The notes under the pieces are model-generated. The model ran no database searches. It saw only the letters and a program-made list of their open reading frames with translations, and had not been told where the DNA came from. Source: Polyangiaceae bacterium (GTDB taxonomy: Bacteria; Myxococcota_A; Polyangia; Polyangiales; Polyangiaceae). From it: a DNA stretch of 64,000 nucleotides. The position numbers and the translations under genes were made by a program. Below, in pieces: positions 40,169 through 44,807 of the stretch. The DNA lies in assembly GCA_025936115.1 (NCBI GenBank), contig JAICTZ010000022.1, positions 1-64,000 on the forward strand, read 5' to 3'. Every line of letters begins with the position of its first letter. Within the stretch, counting starts at the first letter, position 1.

Positions 40169-42360
40169 GCGAAGTCGAAGCGGTGACGGCAGAGGATTTT
40201 GCCCGCCATGTCCAACGGACGAATCCGTTCACTCAAGACCGCGTCACGCAGGTTCAAATCAACCAAGCCGACGTCGGCTCGATCCACGAGAAGGCGTTCA
40301 AGAAGCTCGTCAAACGCATTGACGAGGTTCGCAGCTCGAACAACGCGACCGGGATCTTCCTCACGGGTGCGGCCGGCGTCGGCAAGAGTCACGTGCTGGC
40401 GCGGCTGTTCCGCTGGGCGCGCGAGGAGGGCAAGGCAACCGTCGTCTATCTGCACAATATCCTCGCCTCGCCCGAACGGACCGGCCGTTATCTCCTGCAT
40501 GCGACGGTCAGCGAGCTTGCGGGCTACAGGCCCGCTAACTTCGCGCAGTCAGAGCTGTATGCGCTGATCAATCTCGCGATCGGCGCACGCGTAGAGCGCA
40601 AAGCAAAGAGCATGGCGCCGACGCTCGCCGTTCGAAAGGAAATCCTCGAGCGCATCGGGCACGACATCGACCCGGATCAGCTCGTGATGCCGGTGTTCAT
40701 CACGTACTTGGAGCAGGCCGTGGGCGCCAACCTGGCCGAAGAAGCGGCCGAAGCGCGAGCGCTCGCGGCCGTTCAGTGGTTGTCGGGCGAAACGATCGAC
40801 CCGGAGCTGGCTCGCGGCATCGGCCTTCGCGTCAACACGGAGGACGGCGCGTGCCTGCCGGACGACGTGGCCGTGCAGCGAACACTCGACGTGATTTGCC
40901 GGCTCTGTGCCTGCGCCAGCCGCCCTTTCGTGTTGTGCCTCGATCAAGTCGACAACCTCTCCGCCGAGCGCGTCACGGCGCTCACGAGCTTCCTGCAGGC
41001 TGCCATCGACAATGGGCGCAACCTCGTCGTCGTGGTCTCGGGCGTGAAGGACTCGATGGACCGCCTCCAGCAGAACGGGATCATCCCGGATGCCGCGCTC
41101 GACCGCGTGGCGCAGCATCGCATCAATCTCGAGTCGATCTCACCAAAGGACGCACGCGCCATCGTACTCGAGCGGATCGAAAAATTCTGCGCTCCGTTCT
41201 CCAAGGTGAAGCGCGTCATCGCGGCTCGCGAAGCCGATCCGTTCGCACCGCTCAGTGAGCAGTGGTGGGACAAATACAGCAGCAAGAAGATCGAGGCGCG
41301 CCCGCGCGACGTGGTTCGCGCCGCACGCGACGCTTGGGAAGTCGAGCAGGATCGACTGGCTGACCTCGGCGTCGAAGCGTGGTTGAAGGCACTCGCCAAG
41401 ACACGCGCGGCCTCGGAACCAGCGCCCGCGAAGCCGCTGCCGCCGCTCGAGGCCCGCATCGATCAGGTGGTCAAGCTCAAGATCACCGAAGCGATGAACG
41501 CGAGGCGCCTGAATCCGACGCGTCTTCCGCCCGACGCCGACAACCTGGCGAGTCTCACTCTGACACTCCTGCAAACGTGTGTGGGCGTGCCGAGCTACAC
41601 CCTGCGCGCCGTCGGCGCGGCCACCTCCAAAGAGAAGAGCGCCTGCTACGATCTCCTAGCGACCGAAGAAGCTCCCAACGGGGGCCTCGTCAGCGACGGG
41701 CTCACTTTCTTCACGGCAGACAACGCGCTCAGCGCCACGTACGCGCTGAAACGCCTGGCAGCGGACAAACCTCCGCCCACGCATCAGCTCCTCGTCACCG
41801 ACGACGAGCGCCGCCCATTACGCCTCGGCGCCAAGGGTCTCGAAGTCTACGAAAGCCTCAGCGAGAGCGGCCGCTTCCAACACGTCAGGCTCCGCTTCGA
41901 CGATCACGCATTGCTCGACGCATTCGCGAGCGTGCTCGGCGCTGCCCGCGTCGGCGATCTCGAAGTAGAAGTCGAGCGCGGCTCCTATCGACCCATCACG
42001 GAAGACGAATGCCGAGCGTCGCTGCATCGAACACGAGCGTTCCTCGAGCATCCACTCCTGCGCGAGCTCCTGACGGAGGAGCCGCCCACCAGCATCGGGG
42101 CCCACCCCGTCGGCGTGGGACAAGCTGCCGTCGTTCGCATGCAAATCAAAGGCGAGCTGGCGCTGAACCTATCGATGACGGCACGCGAGATGGCCACCAT
42201 CATCGTCGATCGGACGTCTCAGCCTCCCGAGGTGCTCCCGAGGATTTGGGAGATGGTCAAGACCGTCGCCAAGCAGATGCACCAGGAGAAGCTCTTGTTC
42301 GTCGACGCCCAGGACGACGACCTCTTCCTGCAGCTGGCGTCGACCGAAAGCGCGCCGTGA
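40165..42360 (+). CDS. AAA+/ORC-like P-loop ATPase, 731 aa
   Basis: GIFLTGAAGVGKSHVLARLFRWA Walker A; PFVLCLDQVDNLS Walker B-like; VVVVSGVKDS sensor-like; RPRDVVRAARDAWE lid arginine region. Confidence 0.85.
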   Translation: MSEVEAVTAEDFARHVQRTNPFTQDRVTQVQINQADVGSIHEKAFKKLVKRIDEVRSSNNATGIFLTGAAGVGKSHVLARLFRWAREEGKATVVYLHNILASPERTGRYLLHATVSELAGYRPANFAQSELYALINLAIGARVERKAKSMAPTLAVRKEILERIGHDIDPDQLVMPVFITYLEQAVGANLAEEAAEARALAAVQWLSGETIDPELARGIGLRVNTEDGACLPDDVAVQRTLDVICRLCACASRPFVLCLDQVDNLSAERVTALTSFLQAAIDNGRNLVVVVSGVKDSMDRLQQNGIIPDAALDRVAQHRINLESISPKDARAIVLERIEKFCAPFSKVKRVIAAREADPFAPLSEQWWDKYSSKKIEARPRDVVRAARDAWEVEQDRLADLGVEAWLKALAKTRAASEPAPAKPLPPLEARIDQVVKLKITEAMNARRLNPTRLPPDADNLASLTLTLLQTCVGVPSYTLRAVGAATSKEKSACYDLLATEEAPNGGLVSDGLTFFTADNALSATYALKRLAADKPPPTHQLLVTDDERRPLRLGAKGLEVYESLSESGRFQHVRLRFDDHALLDAFASVLGAARVGDLEVEVERGSYRPITEDECRASLHRTRAFLEHPLLRELLTEEPPTSIGAHPVGVGQAAVVRMQIKGELALNLSMTAREMATIIVDRTSQPPEVLPRIWEMVKTVAKQMHQEKLLFVDAQDDDLFLQLASTESAP

Positions 42361-44807: not shown

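Follow-up and report, generated by a model that had tools for sequence, protein, structure and literature searches.

The window, a stretch of 64,000 nucleotides from contig JAICTZ010000022.1 of a Polyangiaceae bacterium, carries a translationally coupled operon of three genes, A, B and C, the last of which, judged by its sequence, encodes a PDDEXK_1/Cas4-like nuclease and a HerA/DUF87 ATPase in one chain. We consider it probable that the three genes A-B-C serve against invading DNA as a system of the 'HerA/FtsK capture' kind. In our best reading it is a variant of these systems with a Cas4-like nuclease that the text of the paper proposing them (PMC10853773) leaves unnamed. This reading is based on the coupled operon, the fixed pairing of B with the nuclease, the exchange of the motor among relatives and the conserved catalytic residues, together with the BrxC/BrxD matches of B, restriction-modification (RM) and SIR2 genes next to relatives, the patchy distribution and the published precedent. 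Against it weigh the tested neighbours of the operon in the window, among which no defence gene was recognised, and the small number of relatives with defence neighbours.

Operon structure and layout of gene C

The three genes lie on the + strand at 39317..40168 (A, 283 aa), 40165..42360 (B, 731 aa) and 42357..44807 (C, 816 aa), and overlap by four bases each, A with B as ATGA and the stop of B with the start of C as GTGA. The frame of C is open throughout from a GTG start, which agrees with the start of the relatives in the alignment. A longer, 1142-aa mechanical open reading frame from another GTG at 41379 was rejected, as the upstream GTGs fall inside gene B. The GC content by codon position (0.66/0.48/0.82) is typical of a genuine high-GC gene, and full-length fusions of the same type with 50–52% identity were found in two related genomes and one Planctomycetaceae MAG.

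An earlier note on this DNA had described C as a single polypeptide of a Cas4-like Fe-S nuclease and a HerA motor, and had expected Pfam matches to PDDEXK_1 and DUF87/HerA_C. All three models indeed match above their gathering scores: PDDEXK_1 with 53.5 bits (cut-off 22; 4.4e-14) over aa 6–283, DUF87 with 45.4 bits (cut-off 23.2) and HerA_C with 37 bits (cut-off 22), the latter two from aa 398. The motifs it had listed were likewise all present, namely C17, H57, D174, D189-Y190-K191, Q204 and C278-x2-C281-x7-C289 in the nuclease part and Walker A (411–420), Walker B (D673-E674) and Q711 in the ATPase part. While the fusion thus stands, the view of C as a protein on its own missed its membership in the A-B-C set. 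The proposed 1:1 ratio of nuclease to motor is trivially true through the fusion; six nucleases per ring would follow only if the motor of C is hexameric. Both parts are connected by a Pro/Ser/Thr-rich linker (43254..43505, aa 300–383; 15 Pro and 18 Ser/Thr in 84 residues), whose length differs among relatives in the alignment.

Nuclease domain and predicted Fe-S cysteines

The predicted nuclease domain covers aa 1–300 (42357..43256). Its putative catalytic residues D174 (42876), D189 (42921), K191 (42927) and Q204 were assigned by conservation across 34 homologous domains, with D174, K191 and Q204 kept in 33 of the 34 and H57 in 31 of 33. The predicted Fe-S ligands are invariant, C17 (codon 42405..42407) in all 33 domains covering it and C278, C281 and C289 (43188..43223) in 34/34. 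This conservation of the cysteines and of D, K and Q indicates that the motif match is more than chance. The spacing of the distal cysteines is x7 in the C protein of the window and in L004 and L023, the relatives closest to it, and x5 (C-x2-C-x5-C) in distant relatives such as L025 and L027. In the C protein of L030 (4111–6261) the H, D, K and Q were lost (with A, S and G in place of D, K and Q) and the four cysteines retained; it is probably a dead nuclease still fused to HerA, and retention of all four cysteines after loss of the catalytic residues fits a structural Fe-S cluster. From this cysteine conservation, L030 included, the 4Fe-4S cluster suggested by the earlier note is a well supported prediction: the four cysteines are invariant, and the cluster itself is predicted from them.

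An AlphaFold2 model of C, calculated from 4 sequences, was of moderate confidence for the motor, and its nuclease core (pLDDT ~38) was too weak for judging whether the cysteines cluster. This low-confidence model predicts strands at 166–170, 172–179 and 186–193, a helix at 202–216 and a further strand at 222–226, in the beta-beta-beta-alpha-beta order of a PD-(D/E)XK nuclease. Neither the nuclease profile nor the nuclease alone retrieved a useful relative in sequence searches of the PDB. Cas4 proper, as in CRISPR adaptation (TIGR00372), was rejected, since the equivalog score is 22.7 against a cut-off of 65 bits and cas1 and cas2 are not adjacent, the only cas1 of the genome lying on contig C14 and the window on C30. 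The label 'Cas4' for this domain is thus to be read as a family-level resemblance only. The cas1 itself (G000:C14:630-1475) is located inside a 739-aa open frame at a contig end and is possibly part of a fusion.

HerA motor and the repair alternative

The HerA/DUF87 motor extends from 43506 to 44786 with the Walker A motif at 43587–43616. In alignment A1, G416, D673, E674 and R731 are invariant and R700 and Q711 are kept in at least 90% of the sequences; R700 is only a candidate for the arginine finger, and Q711 may act as a sensor. Foldseek returned HerA-NurA (9x1m, with DNA), HerA (4d2i) and DUF4297-HerA (8zit) as top matches of the motor.

The resemblance to archaeal HerA-NurA, which likewise combines a HerA-type pump with a nuclease, raises the possibility that A-B-C is its bacterial counterpart in DNA repair, with HerA pumping a broken end that the Cas4/AddB-like nuclease resects to permit recombination. 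Furthermore, AddB and Cas4 share a nuclease layout with an Fe-S cluster, the layout expected for C from its PDDEXK_1 match, and the window operon is without recognisable defence genes beside it. Nevertheless, we regard a role in repair as unlikely, since the operon is very patchily distributed, its motor was exchanged among relatives, type I RM and SIR2 genes adjoin some of them, and gene A evolves fast, unlike a housekeeping repair factor. NurA belongs to another family of nucleases and docks onto HerA as a protein of its own, whereas the nuclease of C is covalently joined. Membership in the HerA-NurA family was rejected, as profile searches of A, B and C gave no match to the HAS-barrel or to NurA.

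Genes A and B

In the product of gene A, an N-terminal tail rich in Ala and Lys precedes a conserved C-terminal domain of ~90 aa, which is probably a winged helix. The window copy has no Pfam match, one relative matches HTH_45 weakly (0.1), and the relatives are only 16–32% identical to the window copy. The product of gene B is a predicted AAA+ ATPase, of ORC/Cdc6-DnaA-STAND type, in which an alpha/beta region occupies the middle and a probable winged helix the C-terminal part. It matches AAA_16 above the cut-off (37.6 bits), Hda with 5e-7 and orc1/cdc6 with 4e-4, and both the Walker A motif and a D-Q at the Walker B position are among its invariant residues. Five of nine B relatives match BrxC/BrxD of BREX (best 3e-6). 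HTH_Crp_2 was found below the cut-off in the B proteins of L027 (4e-4) and L025 (0.004), and a weak match to Mrr_cat (0.035), seen in L027 only, is the single hint of the inactive REase that a B protein of a capture system would be expected to carry between its AAA+ core and its wHTH. As the AlphaFold2 model of B, calculated from one sequence, failed (mean pLDDT 39), the assignment of its fold and of its DNA-binding parts is based on weak profile matches.

B also matches STAND/NACHT models besides AAA_16, which would be in line with abortive infection, i.e. a nuclease that kills or arrests the host upon triggering by B as a STAND-like sensor. SIR2-domain genes next to two relatives point in the same direction: L067 (2753–6352) and L069 (2177–5779, - strand) encode a ThsA-like (1e-22) SIR2-AAA protein of ~1200 aa, whose gene starts ~15–18 bp downstream of C. 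In L030, with its dead nuclease and retained cysteines, killing may lie elsewhere. Yet the fusion of nuclease and pump speaks for degradation of DNA in a directed manner, and the catalytic residues are retained in 33/34 domains, so that we consider abortive infection by the nuclease quite improbable. Besides the SIR2 genes, HsdM, HsdS and RhuM genes follow C on the same strand in L024. Such recognisable defence neighbours occur at a minority of the related loci only, and the tested neighbours of the operon in the window gave no PADLOC match. Shortly downstream of the Cas4-HerA gene of L065 lies a double-GTPase-like gene (4349–5539, - strand), which scores below the Pfam cut-off.

Distribution and conserved gene order

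Searching 318 genomes from the class of the host with a profile of the nuclease part only (A2) gave matches at 1e-8 in 39 genomes, strong ones in 31 of them; by these strong matches the system is present in 31/318 genomes and in none of the seven congeners, a patchy distribution. The set of 34 nuclease domains additionally includes the Planctomycetaceae MAG and a Pseudanabaena plasmid. Gene B directly precedes the nuclease domain at all 33 loci with upstream sequence; at the 34th (L004) the sequence begins inside B and encodes the last 37 residues of B. The C-terminal domain of gene A was found upstream of B at every locus with a HerA-type motor that reaches that far and, moreover, in L022 and L084, and at loci with an FtsK-type motor an unrecognised gene of ~270–310 aa precedes B.

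The GC content of the operon (0.64–0.66) equals that of its surroundings, so that composition does not hint at recent transfer; even so, no congener carries the operon. Because the flanking genes are missing or non-syntenic in the congeners, a comparison with empty sites reveals no readable insertion boundary. Mobile elements often carry HerA/FtsK motors, and one relative resides on a conjugative plasmid of Pseudanabaena, pPSE7367.01. A-B-C could accordingly be part of a mobile element or of a conjugation apparatus, its motor pumping the DNA of the element and its nuclease processing the ends. Phage contigs bearing lone HerA genes also speak for this, but a search of 50,697 phage records returned nothing matching the system, scans of viral contigs with B and C gave neither a Cas4-HerA fusion nor B, and the conserved unit contains no relaxase, integrase or packaging gene. 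A service to a mobile element therefore appears very improbable. The lone HerA genes on viral contigs are located at 2978–4711 of L092, between apparent large terminase and portal genes, and at 8001–9392 of L091.

Comparison with known systems

The closest precedent for the anti-invader reading are the predicted 'HerA/FtsK capture systems', described in 2024 as operons of ORC/Cdc6, REase, HerA/FtsK and wHTH components (PMC10853773) and proposed there to capture the DNA of invaders as it segregates or is transferred. According to the paper, they combine an ORC/Cdc6-type ATPase, an active REase, HerA or FtsK and a fast-evolving wHTH protein, some contain FtsK-alpha, their motors come from different sources, and two families of active REases as well as a 3'-5' exonuclease are fused to HerA/FtsK. 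Its text names neither Cas4 nor RecB, AddB or Fe-S; the Cas4-like nuclease found here may nevertheless be identical to one of the 'active REase' families. From the profile matches, A-B-C appears to contain an ORC/Cdc6-type AAA+ protein (B) and a predicted-active REase with HerA (C).

The anti-phage complexes HerA-DUF4297 and SIR2-HerA (Nezha) also operate as defence machines of a HerA ring with an effector enzyme. To our knowledge, their effectors are separate polypeptides of other families and neither complex has an ORC-like ATPase or a wHTH partner. DndH of DndFGH unites an REase and a HerA/FtsK ATPase in one polypeptide and has a wHTH partner protein (PMC10853773), but is a protein of ~1700 aa that also contains SNF2-like and TRD parts and an inactive methylase; C matches DndH at 17 bits only and was not assigned to it. 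The best PADLOC match of the motor of C is mad8 of MADS (4.5e-17). Membership in MADS was rejected, as this match is limited to the HerA part and neither A nor B gave a match to any mad gene. UvrD-Cas4 fusions in defence neighbourhoods join a Cas4-like pfam12705 nuclease to a DNA motor as well, which is, in contrast to C, an SF1 helicase and not HerA/FtsK (PMC5704561); this Cas4 survey mentions neither HerA nor FtsK. A search of the open-access literature yielded no Cas4-HerA or Cas4-FtsK fusion. We know of no experimentally characterised member of an A-B-C-type system.

ORC/Cdc6 ATPases serve to load rings or to mark sites on DNA, HerA rings translocate double-stranded DNA, and nucleases of the Cas4/AddB type cut DNA and require the Fe-S cluster for their fold. 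A and B would most likely recognise something that marks invading DNA, for instance an end or an intermediate of replication or transfer, and load protein C there. The HerA part of C would form a ring and pump double-stranded DNA, while the tethered, Fe-S-stabilised nuclease would cut the passing DNA. Recognition, loading, ring formation, cutting and a resulting protection against phages or plasmids are all what we infer for A-B-C. As a defence system it would be a compact case of a nuclease in a pump with inseparable translocation and cutting, by which Cas4-like Fe-S nucleases enter the predicted HerA/FtsK capture systems.

Motor exchange among relatives

The motor fused to the nuclease is not the same throughout the family. 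HerA was found in the group of the window and in L025–L027, L030, L066, L067 and L069, and FtsK in L022, L032 and most others (FtsK_SpoIIIE 8e-39, FtsK_alpha 4e-8). In L084 the nuclease is joined to a third type of P-loop motor (5367–7301, - strand), and a SEC-C motif gene overlaps and follows this nuclease-motor gene. While the assignment of HerA by the earlier note was right for gene C, it had missed these other motors on related nucleases. Both in the nuclease tree and in the B tree, at least two changes of motor type are seen; the nuclease tree rejects the HerA-type domains as a single clade (p 2e-5) and the B tree puts them on one side, so that with this disagreement and the long branches the number, order and direction of the swaps are unsure.

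Tentatively, and with rather more doubt than conviction, we suggest that A-B-C-type systems form a new modular class of defence, in which interchangeable pumps (HerA, FtsK or the third type) would be covalently fused into a constant set of ORC-like ATPase and Fe-S Cas4-like nuclease, while in some versions linked SIR2 or RM genes would take over the killing. One DNA-destroying head would then be aimed through different translocases, and the natural series of HerA, FtsK and third-motor versions together with one dead nuclease could show what the motor contributes.

A further arrangement occurs in L019–L021 (actinobacterial and Methylobacterium), which are without the Cas4 domain and carry a B-like region in frame with HerA, one of them with a DUF559 gene ahead. 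In L020 (5277–10245; Tsukamurella plasmid NZ_LR134464.1), a DUF559 gene, an A-like gene and the B-HerA fusion are located between rplN and rpsQ, adjoining a VapBC pair.
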